The notes beneath the pieces are model-generated. The model had not been told where the DNA came from, did no database searches, and saw nothing but the letters and a program-made list of their open reading frames with translations. From positions 1 to 46,797 of the forward strand of contig JABWCP010000025.1 in assembly GCA_013360215.1 (NCBI GenBank): DNA of 46,797 bases, given 5' to 3'. Shown here piece by piece: positions 38,330 through 44,712 of this stretch (position 1 is its first letter; each line of letters begins with the position of its first letter). Made by a program: the position numbers and the translations under genes. The DNA is from a bacterium. Lineage in GTDB: Bacteria; CLD3; SB21.

Positions 38330-39079
38330 ATGTTAACTCAATTATTACGCGGCACAAGTTATCCTTTTACGGCGTTCGGTTTTATCGTTCATCACCGTCT
38401 CCTGCGGTGGGTGTTAGCACCGTTTCTGATCAATGTGTTGCTTTTCGGTGCTTTTTTCGTATGGACGATCATACATATCAGCGATGTCATACATTGGATG
38501 GAAACCGGGTTTCTCGGTGAAATGAATATTGTACTTTTTTGGATTGTCGCAGCGATCATACTGACGATCTATATACTGATCATGGCCTACATTTGGAGTT
38601 TGATCGGCGGATTAGTCGCTGCACCTTTTAATCAGTACCTCAGTGTACAATCGGAACATATTGAAGGTCTCGTATCCGATCATACCACTTCGTGGTGGCA
38701 TGACCTCTACCGCGCGTTGATCGCCGAACTGAAAAAAATTACATTTCTTTTGTTTCTGATAACGCCTTTGGTTTTATTGCCGCTCATGTTGCTCCATCTG
38801 ATACCCGGCTTCGGAAGTGTGCTCTATGCGATACTGATGTTCGGGTATGTCAGTTTCGCGACAGCATTCAGTTTTTTGGATTATGTATTGGAAAATCGCC
38901 GATTTGGTTTTCGCGAAAAGCTGCGTTTTGTAATGGCCAATCGCGCCTTCTGTTTTGGTTTCGGCGGCGTTTCCGCTCTGCTTTTGATGATTCCTTTTAT
39001 CAATGTACTTTTTATACCTGTGTTGGCCGTTAGCGCCACGCTCATGTATATACGTGAACCTATGCAACAAAAACGGTGA
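38330..39079 (+). CDS. EI24 domain (CysZ-like) membrane protein
   Basis: A polytopic membrane protein of 249 aa. The ATG at 38330 is chosen: it begins MLTQLLRGTSYPFTAFGF, the normal EI24/CysZ start, whereas the longer frame would run 100 bases into the preceding gene. Hydrophobic segments lie at about residues 28-50, 68-98, 145-175, 178-200 and 218-240, with the conserved loop LIGGLVAAPFNQYLSVQSEHIEG after the second. CysZ members import sulfate; other EI24 proteins have no known cargo and no cysteine genes are nearby, so the substrate is open. Its TGA overlaps a GTG at the head of hutH. Confidence 0.85.
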   Translation: MLTQLLRGTSYPFTAFGFIVHHRLLRWVLAPFLINVLLFGAFFVWTIIHISDVIHWMETGFLGEMNIVLFWIVAAIILTIYILIMAYIWSLIGGLVAAPFNQYLSVQSEHIEGLVSDHTTSWWHDLYRALIAELKKITFLLFLITPLVLLPLMLLHLIPGFGSVLYAILMFGYVSFATAFSFLDYVLENRRFGFREKLRFVMANRAFCFGFGGVSALLLMIPFINVLFIPVLAVSATLMYIREPMQQKR

Positions 39080-39087
39080 ATGGAGCT

Positions 39088-40602
39088 ATGACAGAATTTG
39101 CCATCCATGGAGACAATCTGAGTATTGCGGTGATTTCAGAAATTCTGAAAAATAAACCCCGCGTGGTATTGACCGAATCCGCTAAACAAACTATTAACCG
39201 GGGACGCCGGACCATCGAAGACATTGTCAGCTCGGGGCGTGTGGTGTACGGTGTGAATACGGGATTCGGAAAATTCAGCGACGTACGCATTTCCGACGAT
39301 CAGCTTGAAATTTTACAGGAAAACTTAGTGCGCAGCCATGCCTGCGGCGTCGGTGAACCTTTTCCGGCAGACATCGCAAAAGTGATGTTACTTCTTAAAG
39401 CCAACGGATTAGCCAAAGGGTATTCCGGTGTACGATTGGAAATCGTCGAAACATTATTAGCCATGTTTAATGCGGACGTCCTACCGGTGATACCACAACA
39501 AGGTTCCGTCGGTTCGAGCGGAGATCTGGCGCCACTGGCGCATTTGACTTTGGTGTTGATGGGCGAAGGCGAAGCTTGGTTTCAGGGGCAACGTCTGCCC
39601 GGTGGCGAAGCTATGAAGCGCGCAGGAATAAAGCCGGTACGGCTTCGCTCCAAAGAAGGCCTGGCTGTGCTCAATGGTACGCAAACGATGACGGCTACGG
39701 CGGTCGTCAATCTCATACGTGCAAAAAATTGTATGGAAGCGGCTGAAATCTGCGGCGCCATGTCCATGGAGGTTTTGCTGTGTACGCCGACAGCGTTTGA
39801 TCCGCGTATCCAGGATGTGCGAAATCAAACCGGTCAGATCGAGTCCGCGCGACGTCTGCGTGATCTGGTCGCGGGCAGTCCTTTGATCGCGTCCCATGCC
39901 GATTGCAAAAAAGTGCAAGATGCGTACAGCGTGAGGTGCATGCCGCAGGTTCATGGCGCGACGCGGGATGCGATCGCGTATGTACAACAGATCGTCGAGC
40001 GGGAGATCAATGCGGCGACAGATAATCCGCTGATTTTTTCGGAAGACGGCGATGTGTTATCGGGTGGTAATTTTCATGGCCAGCCGGTCGCGCTCGTAAT
40101 GGATTTTCTGGCGATAGCCGTGAGTGAAATCGGTAATATTTCCGAACGTCGCACGGCATGGATGATGGACGGGCATTTGAGCGACGGTTTGCCGCCGTTT
40201 TTGGCAAAAGATGGCGGGCTCAACTCCGGGTATATGATCGCACAATACGCGGCCGCGGCGCTGGTATCGGAGAATAAATCGCTGAGCCATCCGGCCAGTG
40301 TAGATTCCGTACCGACTTCGGCCAATAAAGAAGATCACGTCAGCATGGGTACTATCGGCGCGCGCAAAGCCTACCGGATTATCGAAAACGTCGAAAATAT
40401 TTTAGCCATCGAATGGCTGTGCGCGGCCCAGGCGGGCGATTTTCGCAAGCCGATCGCATTTGCCGGCAAAACGCAAAAAGCATACGACTTACTTAGGAAA
40501 TATGTGCCGACTTTGGATAAAGACCGCAATACCAGTGTGGATATTCAAACGGCCAATGCGCAGTTACAGACGGGCGCTATGGTAAATGCGGTGTGGGGAT
40601 AA
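39088..40602 (+). CDS. hutH: histidine ammonia-lyase
   Basis: Removes ammonia from histidine to give urocanate, the first step of histidine degradation. About 504 aa, the usual length. Motifs: VVYGVNTGFGKF with the catalytic Tyr (near residue 52), VRSHACGVGEP, the cofactor loop GSVGSSGDLAPLAHL, GGNFHGQPVA, and PTSANKEDHVSMG with the late active-site Glu. The MIO cofactor normally forms from Ala-Ser-Gly; here the triad reads Ser-Ser-Gly. The ATG at 39088 has GGAG close upstream; a GTG at 39076 that overlaps the EI24 stop would add four residues. No hutU, hutI or hutG lies nearby. The RHS fragment starts two bases after its stop. Confidence 0.92.
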   Translation: MTEFAIHGDNLSIAVISEILKNKPRVVLTESAKQTINRGRRTIEDIVSSGRVVYGVNTGFGKFSDVRISDDQLEILQENLVRSHACGVGEPFPADIAKVMLLLKANGLAKGYSGVRLEIVETLLAMFNADVLPVIPQQGSVGSSGDLAPLAHLTLVLMGEGEAWFQGQRLPGGEAMKRAGIKPVRLRSKEGLAVLNGTQTMTATAVVNLIRAKNCMEAAEICGAMSMEVLLCTPTAFDPRIQDVRNQTGQIESARRLRDLVAGSPLIASHADCKKVQDAYSVRCMPQVHGATRDAIAYVQQIVEREINAATDNPLIFSEDGDVLSGGNFHGQPVALVMDFLAIAVSEIGNISERRTAWMMDGHLSDGLPPFLAKDGGLNSGYMIAQYAAAALVSENKSLSHPASVDSVPTSANKEDHVSMGTIGARKAYRIIENVENILAIEWLCAAQAGDFRKPIAFAGKTQKAYDLLRKYVPTLDKDRNTSVDIQTANAQLQTGAMVNAVWG

Positions 40603-40604
40603 AA

Positions 40605-41633
40605 ATGGATAGACTTGATGCCGCGTGGCGTTTGGAGCATTACAATATCTATGGCAACGACCTCCTCGGCAAACTCGACTCCCTCCAGAAACGCTACTAC
40701 TACCTCACCGATCACCTCGGAAGCGTGCGCGTCACCGTCAAAGATACAGCAGGAGTTCCCGTAGATTCGTGGAGCGATTACTATCCCTTCGGTAAAGAAT
40801 CACGCGGGTCGAGTACGGTCAATGAACCGAAAGAAGGCTACACGAGTCAACTCTACGATTCAGAATCTGATTTAATTTATTACAAACGAAGATATTACAA
40901 CCAAAATATAGCTCGATTTATTTCTGTCGATCCGTTGACTGATAAATATCCACAGTGGACTCCGTATCAATATGCCGGCAATATGCCGGTTAGATACATC
41001 GATTTGGATGGATTAGAGCCTGCACATCCCGTTAATTTGTTTTGTAATAATAACCCAACAACTGCAACTTTTTTAGGTATAGTTCAAGGGGTTTACAATT
41101 TTGGCAGCAGTATAGTTGATGGATTATCTCAAGAATCGAATGGGGCCTCATTTTCAATGAATCTACTTAAAGCGGGCCTTGAAATAGCATCAGATCCAGG
41201 CCAAGCTTTAGCTAATGTGATTAATGCCGTGGACACACGCGTAGATAATATGTCTAGTTCTAATAACTATACAAAAGCAGCAGCAATTACTGAAACTGTA
41301 CTTGATGTTGCTGCGACAGCTACGGTTGCAGCAGATGCGGTAAATTTAGTTAAAACCGCTGACGCTGTAAGTACAACCGCTAAGATGTCCGATGCCGCAA
41401 AGGTTCTTGGAAAGGCCGATGCAACAGTAAGCGCTACTTCGGGTCAAACCTATCCATGGGGCGGTGCGAGCAGAGAAGTAAGTAAAAACTTTAAAAAAGT
41501 ATCTGACACAGAGGCTGGGGCTTTATTCCAATATTCGCGAACTGACAAAAATGGAAATAAGATAGCACGCATTATTAGCGAGGAGCATAAAAGAGGAGGA
41601 ACTATAGGTGAACATTTAAGGAACGAAAAATGA
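40605..41633 (+). CDS. orphan, 5'-truncated RHS protein tip with unknown C-terminal toxin-like domain
   Basis: A 342-aa remnant of an RHS (YD-repeat) protein, a class that carries variable toxins at its C-terminus. It has no signal peptide and no YD-repeat shell. Residues 30-136 are the RHS core: YYYLTDHLGSVRV, YYPFGKESRG, YDSESDLIYYKRRYYN, SVDPLTDKYPQWTPYQYAGN and YIDLDGLEP, the last matching the DPxGL site where such proteins are cut. Residues 137-280 are Ala-rich and partly hydrophobic, like a pre-toxin linker. The final 62 residues (from QTYPWGGASREVSKNF to GEHLRNEK) form a small charged domain that I do not recognise. Its TGA overlaps the next ATG. Codon use is C-ending before about 40857 and AT-rich after it. 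Confidence 0.8.
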   Translation: MDRLDAAWRLEHYNIYGNDLLGKLDSLQKRYYYLTDHLGSVRVTVKDTAGVPVDSWSDYYPFGKESRGSSTVNEPKEGYTSQLYDSESDLIYYKRRYYNQNIARFISVDPLTDKYPQWTPYQYAGNMPVRYIDLDGLEPAHPVNLFCNNNPTTATFLGIVQGVYNFGSSIVDGLSQESNGASFSMNLLKAGLEIASDPGQALANVINAVDTRVDNMSSSNNYTKAAAITETVLDVAATATVAADAVNLVKTADAVSTTAKMSDAAKVLGKADATVSATSGQTYPWGGASREVSKNFKKVSDTEAGALFQYSRTDKNGNKIARIISEEHKRGGTIGEHLRNEK

Positions 41634-41905
41634 AAACATTTAATTTGGATGCTAGATTGTTTGCTATTATTAACAGTTCTGAGTTTGAAGGAAAAGAAAC
41701 AACAGGCCCAATTATGAGAAAGGGAGAAGGTAATTGTGTAGAGCTGTTAGTTTTTGAATCTCCAGATCAAGCCAAGAGATTCATGAGAGATCAAAACATT
41801 ACATGGGAGAAACACCAAATTGTTAACTTAAGCCACTCTGTTATTGTTGATTCAGTTAATGAATTAAGTGATGAGTTTGATGTAAAAATCATTTTAGTGA
41901 ATTAG
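41630..41905 (+). CDS. candidate immunity protein for the RHS tip
   Basis: A small soluble protein of 91 aa whose ATG overlaps the RHS stop (ATGA). That position is where polymorphic toxin systems encode the cognate immunity protein. It has no signal or membrane segment; alternating strands and helices are likely (LDARLFAIINSSEF; NCVELLVFESPDQAKRFMRD; SHSVIVDSVNEL; EFDVKIILVN). It is AT-rich like the toxin end and unlike the genes around. No family is recognised. If the toxin guess is right, it would bind and neutralise the 62-residue tip in the cytosol; this is inference from position and size. Confidence 0.6.
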   Translation: MKTFNLDARLFAIINSSEFEGKETTGPIMRKGEGNCVELLVFESPDQAKRFMRDQNITWEKHQIVNLSHSVIVDSVNELSDEFDVKIILVN

Positions 41906-41951
41906 AAGAATTCGATTTATTTTTTAATATTAATCTAAAGTATTTCCCCGT

Positions 41952-41978
41952 AATCCTCCCTTACCGGAGGGTTTTTCT
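41952..41978 (+). terminator. terminator of the RHS tip-immunity pair
   Basis: CCTCC-CTTACC-GGAGG, extended by three weaker pairs (AAT with GTT), followed by T5-C-T4. It lies 46 bases after the immunity stop. Confidence 0.75.
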
Positions 41979-41992
41979 TTTCCGCGCTATCA

Positions 41993-42014
41993 CGTCACGC
42001 CTTCGGCGTGATGA
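41993..42014. repeat. REP-like palindrome, copy 1
   Basis: CGTCACGCC-TTC-GGCGTGATGA: a 7-bp perfect stem TCACGCC/GGCGTGA with a 3-base loop. It nearly repeats at 42056-42074 and in part at 42103-42110. No gene covers this region. Confidence 0.6.
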
Positions 42015-42055
42015 TTCATCCCCGTGGCTAAGTAGTTTTTGAAGTTCGCCCGTGC

Positions 42056-42074
42056 GTCACGCCTTTGGCGTGAC
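42056..42074. repeat. REP-like palindrome, copy 2
   Basis: GTCACGCC-TTT-GGCGTGAC, a perfect 8-bp stem with a 3-base loop. It is the same element as at 41993-42014; a third, half copy (CGTCACGC) lies at 42103-42110. Confidence 0.65.
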
Positions 42075-42145
42075 AGGTCTAACCCCCGCTATGCGTTCGT
42101 GTCGTCACGCGTGCCGCGAGATGATACTGCAGCGTGTGCGTGAAT

Positions 42146-43063
42146 TTATATATACCTATTGTTATTCTGTTCAATATTTATCCGATTCGGTAGCCGATAC
42201 TTTTCGCATAGTCTATTCAATTTTTCTTCCAACGCAGTCAGATAATAATCGGGCATCGTAGCAGAACGGTCGAAATACCCACGGTATTTATCTATTAAGT
42301 GCGGATAATGCTGTTGAATCGTCCGGAGTGTACGGATTTTGCTGTCGGAGGGCTGATCACCGTACAAAGTCAAAGAAGCCGGAAAAATATACCGTGCCCC
42401 GATTTGTGCAAACGTCGAAAACGATAGTTCGAGTTGATCTGCCGTATCGGATATCCACGGTAGCAGCGGCATCAGACTGACGCCCGCGTAAAATCCTTCA
42501 TCCAAAATTTGTTTCAGTCCTTGCAGGCGGCGCGACGGCGGTGTCGCACCGGGTTCGAAGATGTGCGCCGTGCGATCATCTATCGACGAAAAAGAAAATG
42601 TGATGAGTGCGCCCGACGGTACTTTGCCTAACAAGTCTTCGGGCAAAATAGCAGTCTTACCGATGTGCATCAAAATATCGGTATCGCGTAATATCAGATC
42701 GGAACGCGTGATGATGTGAACCGGAAATCGGTGGTGCAAGATGATCTCTAATAATCGGCGCGTGAGCCCGAGTTCCTTTTCCGCATGTCCATACGGGTCG
42801 GTGGAGGAAGCGAGTACGATAAATCCATATTGTCCGCGTTTGGCGCGAAGGCTTAACTGTTTATCCAGCAGTTCAGGCGCATTGGTTTTATAGGATAGTT
42901 TTTTTTCGGTGTGTGTACCGTATCGGCTTCCATGCACATAACAAAATACGCATCCCGTCGAACAGCCGCTGTACGGATTGAGGGTATAGTCATCCAAAAA
43001 CCATGGATCGCGGCGTTTGGTTTTGTTGAGGATGGTTCGAACAGTGACAGGCGTACAGGGCAT
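42146..43063 (-). CDS. radical SAM protein, SPL (spore photoproduct lyase)-like family
   Basis: Radical SAM enzyme of 305 aa resembling COG1533 (SplB-related) proteins. The cluster motif GCSTGCVFCYVHGS (CxxxCxxC, near residues 34-41) follows LNPYSGC, the family hallmark, and comes after a short N-terminal VRTILNKTKRRDPWFLDDYT. Then VLASSTDPYGHAEKELGLTR and VHIITRSDLILRD match the SAM barrel of this family. The C-terminal region DKYRGYFDRSATMPDYY is also typical. Members are widespread in bacteria that form no spores and their substrate is unknown, so DNA photoproduct repair should not be assumed. It is separated from the nucleotidyltransferase by 149 bases and faces the RHS cassette. Confidence 0.88.
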   Translation of the reverse strand: MPCTPVTVRTILNKTKRRDPWFLDDYTLNPYSGCSTGCVFCYVHGSRYGTHTEKKLSYKTNAPELLDKQLSLRAKRGQYGFIVLASSTDPYGHAEKELGLTRRLLEIILHHRFPVHIITRSDLILRDTDILMHIGKTAILPEDLLGKVPSGALITFSFSSIDDRTAHIFEPGATPPSRRLQGLKQILDEGFYAGVSLMPLLPWISDTADQLELSFSTFAQIGARYIFPASLTLYGDQPSDSKIRTLRTIQQHYPHLIDKYRGYFDRSATMPDYYLTALEEKLNRLCEKYRLPNRINIEQNNNRYI

Positions 43064-43212
43064 AAAAATAAAATTCTGTCAACGTATGGTAATTGAAAAA
43101 ACACGCGCGTATTGGTTGAGCATCCGTTACGAGGATATTTTTGGTCAGGCGCAAAAACAGCCTGCTGTCCTATAATCGAACAAAAACAAAATCAGTTTTC
43201 GTCTGTACCTGT

Positions 43213-43659
43213 TTAGTTTTTCAAAAGATGCTTCAAAGCCGCAACATCCATTTGATCTCTTTCACGGAGTGATTGTTCTTTGAACCAAACCAACATGGAA
43301 GCATCCAAAAAAGGAATTTTGTGCCCGTCCAAAGCGTGAAAACGAATATGAGAGGTGAGATCGGAATAACGTTTGCCGTTTATCCGAGTAAAAATATCTA
43401 TTGGAAAAACTTCAATGAGGCGAACGGCACCTTCTTCATCAGGAAAATCTTCAACTGAAAGTTCGCGGGCATACCCGTCATGATAGCCGGATAAAACGGA
43501 AATGAGTTTTTTGAGATTGGAAATATGATCATCAACGATGATATCAACGTCTTCGGTCGGTCGTACATGTCCGTTAAAAACGCAGGCAAATCCTCCGACT
43601 ACAATAAAACGGATTTCATTTTTTGTCAGCAGGACCAACAATTTTTCGTATTCGTTCAT
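43213..43659 (-). CDS. nucleotidyltransferase-fold protein (NTP_transf/AbiEii-like)
   Basis: A protein of 148 aa with the pol-beta-like nucleotidyltransferase core: VVGGFACVFNGHVRPTEDVDIIV (residues 20-42) holds the GG/GS turn and the two acidic metal ligands in DVDI. Later come IEVFPIDIFTRI with a third Asp and the C-terminal QSLRERDQMDVAALKHLL, where the RERDQxDxxAL pattern is common to this family (for example with 'DIEDL' ends). The family includes toxins and antitoxins that modify tRNA or partner proteins as well as antibiotic transferases; the exact role is unknown. Its ATG lies inside the end of the preceding 54-codon gene (44-base overlap), and AGGA precedes it. Confidence 0.8.
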   Translation of the reverse strand: MNEYEKLLVLLTKNEIRFIVVGGFACVFNGHVRPTEDVDIIVDDHISNLKKLISVLSGYHDGYARELSVEDFPDEEGAVRLIEVFPIDIFTRINGKRYSDLTSHIRFHALDGHKIPFLDASMLVWFKEQSLRERDQMDVAALKHLLKN

Positions 43660-43780
43660 TGTTTTCCTGTTTAGGTTTTTTGCCGATTTTTTTTAGAAAT
43701 TCATTCAGCTCTGCGACGAGTTCCGTAGGGCGTTTTTTGGATTGGCCGATTTGCTTACGGATATGTTCACCCACACCCAT
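43616..43780 (-). CDS. small basic protein (54 aa) between parB and the nucleotidyltransferase gene
   Basis: A short frame starting at an ATG two bases after the parB stop (TAATCATG), with GGGG ahead, and overlapping the start of the nucleotidyltransferase gene by 44 bases in another frame. It encodes a Lys/Glu-rich, mostly helical peptide (for example HIRKQIGQSKKRPTELVAEL near the start and KKIGKKPKQENN later). No known domain is recognised. The arrangement of a short charged protein overlapping a nucleotidyltransferase is like toxin-antitoxin or two-part modules, so it is worth keeping. It could also be a translational coupling leader. Confidence 0.5.
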   Translation of the reverse strand: MGVGEHIRKQIGQSKKRPTELVAELNEFLKKIGKKPKQENNERIRKIVGPADKK

Positions 43781-43782
43781 GA

Positions 43783-44712
43783 TTATCCCCGGATGGTTTC
43801 GATCATTTCGATGACGCGTTGCAAGTCGTCATTCGAATAATATTCGATCTCTACGGAGCCGCTGCCGTCTTTGTGATGATGCAGGCGCACTTTGGTGCCT
43901 AACTTCATACGCAGGCGTCCTTCCACATCCGCGATATGCGGGTTGGCCGGTTGCGCGGATTCGATTTCATATTTATTCGGCGAAACTTTGTGGCTTTTTC
44001 CTTCGAGTTCCTCAAGCGTCGTTTTGACCAACTGTTCGGTTTTGCGAACGGACATGCCGCCGTCCACGATCTGCTTCCATGCTTTGAGCTGAAGCTGTTC
44101 GGAGGGGAGTGCGATCAGAGCGCGTCCGTGGCCGATGGTGATTTCTTCTTTTTTGAGGCTTTCCTGGATATCGGCCGGCAGTTTTAGCAAACGAATAATA
44201 TTGGTAATGGTCGTACGATCTTTGCCGATTTTTTGAGCGACCTGATCTTGTGTCAAATTGCAGGTTTCGATCAGTAGCTGGTACCCTTCGGCCAATTCGA
44301 TCGGATTGAGTTTTTCGCGCTGGACATTTTCGATGATGGCCAGTTCGAGCATTTCCTGATCGGTGACATTTTCACGGATGTAAGCGGGTAACTCAGTCAG
44401 CCCGGCCAATTTGCTGGCGCGAAAACGGCGCTCTCCGGCGATCAATTCATAACCGGTCGCTGTTTTACGAACGGTGATCGGCTGAATGATACCGTTTTGC
44501 AGAATCGATTGTTTTAGTTCTTCCAGCGCCTGCGGTTCGAATTCCTTACGCGGCTGAAAGGGGTTTGCACGAATCTGGTCAATCGGTATTTTAGCGATGG
44601 GCGTATCGCTCCGCACTTCATCTTTGAGCGTACCGTCGGCATTAAGTTCTTCGCGAATAAGCGCACTAAGGCCTTTTCCAAGACCCGTATTTTTTTTGGG
44701 CGTAAAATTCAT
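43783..44712 (-). CDS. parB: chromosome partitioning protein ParB
   Basis: CTP-dependent DNA clamp that loads at parS sites and, with ParA, separates replicated origins. Domains: N-terminal GLGKGLSALI (residues 10-19), the ParB/Srx CTPase part with NPFQPRKEF, GIIQPITVRK and the C-motif GERRFRASKLAG (near 93-104), then ENVQREKLNPIE and the helix-turn-helix (LTQDQVAQKIGKDRTTITN, about 155-173), and a C-terminal dimer domain with HHHKDGSGSVEIEYYS. Length 309 aa is normal. It follows parA after 12 bases with no ribosome site of its own, fitting coupled expression. A degenerate half parS-like sequence is seen near 45539. Confidence 0.96.
   Translation of the reverse strand: MNFTPKKNTGLGKGLSALIREELNADGTLKDEVRSDTPIAKIPIDQIRANPFQPRKEFEPQALEELKQSILQNGIIQPITVRKTATGYELIAGERRFRASKLAGLTELPAYIRENVTDQEMLELAIIENVQREKLNPIELAEGYQLLIETCNLTQDQVAQKIGKDRTTITNIIRLLKLPADIQESLKKEEITIGHGRALIALPSEQLQLKAWKQIVDGGMSVRKTEQLVKTTLEELEGKSHKVSPNKYEIESAQPANPHIADVEGRLRMKLGTKVRLHHHKDGSGSVEIEYYSNDDLQRVIEMIETIRG

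Follow-up and report, generated by a model that had tools for sequence, protein, structure and literature searches.

A 342-aa fragment of an RHS gene and the 91-aa gene overlapping its end were found in the window (the whole stretch of 46,797 nucleotides of contig JABWCP010000025.1 that was analysed), and together they probably constitute an orphan rhs-CT/rhsI (toxin-immunity) module with candidate activities. Comparison with related genomes has shown a foreign, AT-rich and Bacteroidota-like tip joined to an RHS fragment of the type found in the family, the composite being now located between hutH and parB. The initial annotation had described the locus as a displaced orphan RHS tip with a candidate immunity gene, and this description is borne out by an anatomy like that of the modules of same-family genomes, by an empty site in six relatives and by the distance from any full-length RHS gene. 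The two-origin chimera of the RHS core had been overlooked and is added here. The history of the cassette, that is, the chimera and the empty site, is better evidenced than its activity.

Organization of the cassette

The start codon of the 342-aa ORF lies two bases past the TAA of hutH (40600-40602), and the protein aligns with the full-length RHS genes of relatives from about residue 3 onward. The RHS-associated core model TIGR03696 (NCBIfam), by which a core domain of about 76 positions is assigned when the score exceeds the curated cut-off, matched residues 59-137 with an E value of 5.9e-17 and 61.9 bits against a cut-off of 32.5, covering model positions 1-76, the full model length. The core ends at the cleavage-like site DLDGL (residues 133-137), which is followed by a linker and a variable C-terminal domain. 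These are the elements of an orphan module detached from its full-length gene, with a small immunity-like gene directly downstream. By comparison with a full-length RHS toxin, the ORF starts inside the core and has neither the export/PAAR N-terminus nor the RHS/YD repeat shell. Since signal peptide, shell and repeats are all missing, the RHS piece would not be exportable as it stands. A Pfam search gave no match in the 342-aa or the 91-aa ORF, and RHS_repeat (PF05593) had no match anywhere in the host genome. Both ORFs are intact, with no internal stop or frameshift.

The stop codon of the 342-aa ORF shares bases with the start of the 91-aa ORF in an ATGA at 41630-41633, which is preceded by the ribosome-binding-like sequence AAGGAA. 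The remnant behind hutH, with its core end, DLDGL and C-terminal domain, and the ATGA overlap had both been pointed out in the initial annotation, and the coordinates agree. The codon positions of the 91-aa ORF were coding-like (GC 0.42/0.29/0.26 and purine 0.71/0.51/0.49 for the three positions), and the chance of an open run of this length was about 0.00035 under a first-order Markov model of the same sequence. Inspection of the 91-aa protein revealed neither a signal peptide or other export signal nor a membrane segment, and the putative immunity protein looks soluble and cytosolic.

The cassette is followed by a terminator-like hairpin, a kind of site about as frequent in shuffled sequence (7 in the window versus 5.8 expected by chance), and by a pair of REP-like palindromes, which is far above chance (0.08 expected in the window). 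The coordinates of all these features are given in Table 1.

Table 1. Features of the orphan RHS cassette and its surroundings (window coordinates).
Feature	Position	Strand	Evidence or remarks
hutH (histidine ammonia-lyase), intact left neighbour	39076..40602	+	Pfam Lyase_aromatic, E 4e-203
hutH-parB intervening stretch, 3.18 kb	40603..43782	.	Absent from relatives
Orphan RHS tip, 342 aa	40605..41633	+	TIGR03696 match; no signal peptide, no RHS repeats
5' core part, residues 1-79, family-native type, GC 0.52	40605..40841	+	71-78% protein identity to RHS of G007/G008
3' core end, residues 80-138, foreign type, GC 0.37	40842..41018	+	Pairwise comparison
DLDGL cleavage-like site	41001-41015	+	Within the 3' core segment
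Ala-rich, partly hydrophobic linker from core to C-terminal domain	41019..41438	+	Sequence; no family match
Unrecognised C-terminal domain, 64 aa, candidate toxin	41439..41630	+	No match in Pfam, NCBIfam, PHROGs, PDB, plasmids, phages or searched genomes
Candidate immunity protein, 91 aa	41630..41905	+	ATGA overlap, AAGGAA upstream, coding signal; no database match
Intrinsic-terminator-like hairpin with T run, after the cassette	41952..41973	+	Weak on its own
Two copies of REP-like palindrome CGTCACGCCTTYGGCGTGA	41993..42073	.	Near-identical, directly behind the cassette
parB, right neighbour	43783..44712	-	Adjoins hutH in relatives

Insertion between hutH and parB

In all six same-family genomes examined (L058-L063), the hutH stop and the end of the convergent parB gene are no more than about 20 nt apart, so the RHS piece belongs to one insertion or to several successive ones. 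The 3,180 bases that separate the two genes in the host hold the RHS piece, the 91-aa gene, the two REP-like palindromes, a radical-SAM gene and a nucleotidyltransferase gene. The closest homologues of the radical-SAM gene are 47-48% identical (G003 and G004) and adjoin neither hutH nor parB. Target-site repeats were sought at the insertion ends and only matches of 7-8 bases were found, which were not convincing. Damage to hutH was rejected, as HutH is whole: it aligns to solved HutH structures up to residue 503 of 508, and to the orthologues of the six same-family genomes, which are 70-71% identical, up to residue 507.

The nucleotidyltransferase (148 aa; DUF6036/AbiEii-like, E 1.3e-4, just below the cut-off) is encoded on the minus strand at 43213-43780 and overlapped by a 54-aa ORF; the two could be a toxin-antitoxin pair. 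The presence of this second possible pair suggests that the hutH-parB junction may be an insertion hot spot in the host genome.

Two origins of the RHS core

Pairwise comparison revealed two segments of different affinity in the core. Residues 1-79 are 82% identical to the RHS protein of G008 and 75% to that of G007, and at DNA level positions 40622-40834 are 74% identical to relatives, the similarity to them ending thereafter. Residues 80-138 are only 48% identical to G008 and 39% to G007, and 57% identical to both a Flammeovirga RHS protein and an Ignavibacteriae record. As a control, G008 and G007 were compared with each other and remained 77% (residues 1-79) and 75% (residues 80-138) alike, so the drop at residue 80 is not a general trait of the core. 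Beyond 40834 the sole DNA match was a run of 63 bases, 75% identical, in the RHS tip of a Flammeovirga plasmid. The GC content is 0.52 before the joint and 0.37 after it, and third-position GC drops there from about 0.7 to 0.3. The identity drop, the loss of DNA similarity and the GC shift, all at one place, indicate that the core end and, judged by composition, the tip behind it are foreign, with the joint about 55 codons before DLDGL. By sequence identity, the second core segment is nearest to RHS cores of Bacteroidota/Ignavibacteria type.

RHS genes in the host and in related genomes

A search of the host genome for a full-length RHS gene with another C-terminus, a check suggested in the initial annotation, has been carried out and returned only fragments of another core type; hence no carrier for the tip was found. 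Three other RHS core matches, 31-39% identical, are present in the host, including two neighbouring RHS fragments on contig C26, each with a small gene behind it. No full-length RHS gene with the core type seen in the 5' part of the tip was detected in the host assembly, and no DNA copy of the tip region was present in its 56 contigs, in which a repeat could be collapsed. An origin by duplication of an RHS tip of the host itself was rejected on these grounds, namely the low identity of the other three cores and the lack of a DNA copy. On host contig C4 (L044, 4487-8425), an 827-aa RHS fragment of the other core type adjoins an IS30-like transposase gene, and a 134-aa gene overlaps the end of this fragment.

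RHS genes with a matching core (58-65% identity overall) were found in the same-family genomes G008, G007 and G003, those of G008 and G003 being long and starting with Sec-like signal sequences. The same-family genomes also carry displaced RHS tips with their own downstream genes, two of which overlap by 4 nt; tips of G007 and G008 have a small gene directly downstream, in the same layout as the 342-aa/91-aa cassette. Decayed RHS pieces with frameshifted 5' parts are present in relatives as well. In G008, two orphan RHS tips (L035, contig C443, 3696-9063; L038, contig C35, 86-8102) adjoin copies of a repeated cassette that consists of a helix-turn-helix regulator, an AAA ATPase of about 540 aa and two tandem tyrosine recombinases. 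As two copies adjoin RHS tips in one genome, this cassette suggests a mobile element with a possible role in the transfer or reshuffling of tips.

An isolated short RHS tip followed by a small gene, again in the layout of the 342-aa/91-aa cassette, is located in Flammeovirga kamogawensis plasmid p1 (L007, 2926-4438). By inspection, the C-terminus of this tip resembles a cell-wall enzyme with an SH3-like end, and the small protein that follows has an N-terminal membrane segment, in contrast to the soluble-looking 91-aa protein.

Search for relatives of the candidate toxin domain and immunity protein

The C-terminal domain had no relative in nine genomes of the phylum, and neither it nor the 91-aa protein had one in up to about 1,570-1,580 whole genomes, which were taken from Bacteroidota and Ignavibacteria groups in draws that partly overlapped. 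Both were also absent from the results of an exact 8-residue seed search of 84,980 genomes; since most relatives below roughly 50-60% identity would escape this method, the result demonstrates rarity of the two proteins rather than absence. Viral contigs, plasmids, phages and solved structures yielded no relatives either, nor did a single widening of the seeds by a pseudo-profile that allowed conservative substitutions. When the whole 342-aa protein and the domain were compared with Pfam and NCBIfam at E values up to 1-10, just the core and a chance bacteriocin match were obtained, and no known toxin family.

Several matches were discarded as chance: a glycosyltransferase of G009, ClpC-like and repeat proteins, a protease-like protein and others, a splicing factor and viral nucleoproteins in the PDB, plasmid TraR and glycosyltransferase proteins, and an unannotated 4-kb phage record (E 0.3). 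The few matches at E < 0.01 were to housekeeping proteins or to others of no relation, none of them encoded next to an RHS gene. The C-terminus RGGTIGEHL shows what we took to be a weak likeness to the end of colicin E3-type RNases, which was dropped because no search supported it. Single-sequence models of the C-terminal domain (mostly helical, pLDDT 68, pTM 0.34) and of the 91-aa protein (alpha/beta, pLDDT 47) were too weak to name a fold, and a PDB fold search with them gave no match at E < 8. The HMM and structure-based searches proposed for the two proteins thus recognised nothing, in line with the earlier statement that both are unrecognised: no family, solved structure or searched genome matched.

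Interpretation and alternative explanations

The reading as an orphan toxin-immunity module is favored by the core match, by the ATGA overlap with the ribosome-binding-like site and coding signal, by the empty site, by the chimera with its control, and by the same-family genomes, in which long RHS genes coexist with displaced tips and their downstream genes, as well as by the Flammeovirga plasmid tip with its small gene. Against it stand the poor single-sequence models, the empty fold search and the lack of a same-core full-length RHS gene in the host assembly. Known orphan CdiA-CT genes, moreover, are mostly devoid of translation starts, and the 342-aa ORF has an ATG. Toxin and immunity activities are assigned to the C-terminal domain and the 91-aa protein putatively, from position, as the searches returned no homologue of either.

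That start codon after hutH would fit a functional intracellular toxin-antitoxin pair whose selected role is now addiction or growth control, delivery being no longer relevant; the toxin-antitoxin-like nucleotidyltransferase gene in the same insertion and the Salmonella precedent point in the same direction. This is, however, a special case of the orphan module, in which expression and toxicity of the pair are only putative, and it is considered unlikely as the main role. Slightly less credence is given to the view that the cassette is a dead remnant, left by chance from a lost RHS locus and either unexpressed or non-functional. The junction directly at the hutH stop, the missing signal peptide, the host genome devoid of a carrier gene with the core type of the tip and the decayed pieces in relatives would agree with such decay, but the tip and the 91-aa ORF are both free of stops and frameshifts, and the latter has a ribosome-binding-like site and a coding signal. 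It is quite improbable that the 91-aa gene is a small gene with no relation to this tip, or encodes what was once the C-terminal end of a longer toxin, cut off when the frame was lost at the ATGA. With 64 aa after the linker, the C-terminal domain is unusually small, and neither protein has relatives that could reveal a pairing, yet the ATGA overlap and the upstream AAGGAA fit a separate, coupled gene, and tips in related genomes likewise have small genes behind them.

For the orphan toxin-immunity module, the following history can be proposed. A full-length RHS gene would first have swapped its tip by recombination in the core, and its 3' end would later have been displaced, together with the immunity gene, to the hutH-parB junction; the carrier gene may have been lost or may persist in another lineage. 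The cassette is probably co-transcribed with hutH by read-through, ending at the hairpin behind the immunity gene, and the 91-aa protein would be made by translational coupling and neutralise the C-terminal domain. As the putative immunity protein looks soluble and cytosolic, the toxin would most likely act there, with nucleic acid or translation as possible targets. The module could protect from kin that deliver the same tip; provided that the tip is translated, it may also work inside the cell as a toxin-antitoxin pair; and it could serve as a tip store, the approximately 210 bp of shared core offering a full-length RHS gene of the same type a way to recover the tip. Protective, internal toxin-antitoxin and tip-store roles are supported elsewhere for orphan modules (PMC3150448, PMC7043789, PMC3482391).

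Comparison with known systems

The cassette resembles the orphan rhs-CT/rhsI modules described by Poole et al. 2011 (PMC3150448), in which an RHS fragment with core end, cleavage-like motif and variable tip is immediately followed by a small immunity-like gene, apart from the full-length RHS gene. Those modules form an array behind the main gene, whereas the cassette of the window lies alone at the hutH-parB junction, with DLDGL in place of DPxGL, a chimeric core, its own ATG and an activity that is a candidate one. The toxin-immunity order and the tip exchange by 3'-end recombination are shared with the standalone cassettes of polymorphic toxins (Zhang et al. 2012, PMC3482391); in contrast to these, neither the C-terminal domain nor the 91-aa protein is matched by a toxin or immunity model of Pfam or NCBIfam. 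The Salmonella rhs orphan toxin-antitoxin pair (PMC7043789) also consists of an orphan Rhs C-terminus and an adjacent immunity gene without the delivery part, but it adjoins its full-length rhs, which the cassette, known here from sequence alone, does not.

The kind of module is well known and understood, and it is found here in a poorly sampled phylum, with a candidate toxin part and a candidate antidote unlike anything in the collections searched. It is conceivable, as a tentative proposal based on the lack of matches, that a family of polymorphic toxins and a family of immunity proteins, both undescribed, are represented here for the first time by the domain and the 91-aa protein, with a cytosol-acting toxin domain possibly among the smallest RHS ones. 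The empty site in relatives and the mapped joint make this locus a clear case of an RHS tip moving between distant bacterial groups, with the recombination point inside the core, well ahead of the cleavage-like site. Should the pair prove active, the known repertoire would gain a small toxin, so far unrecognised, together with its antidote.
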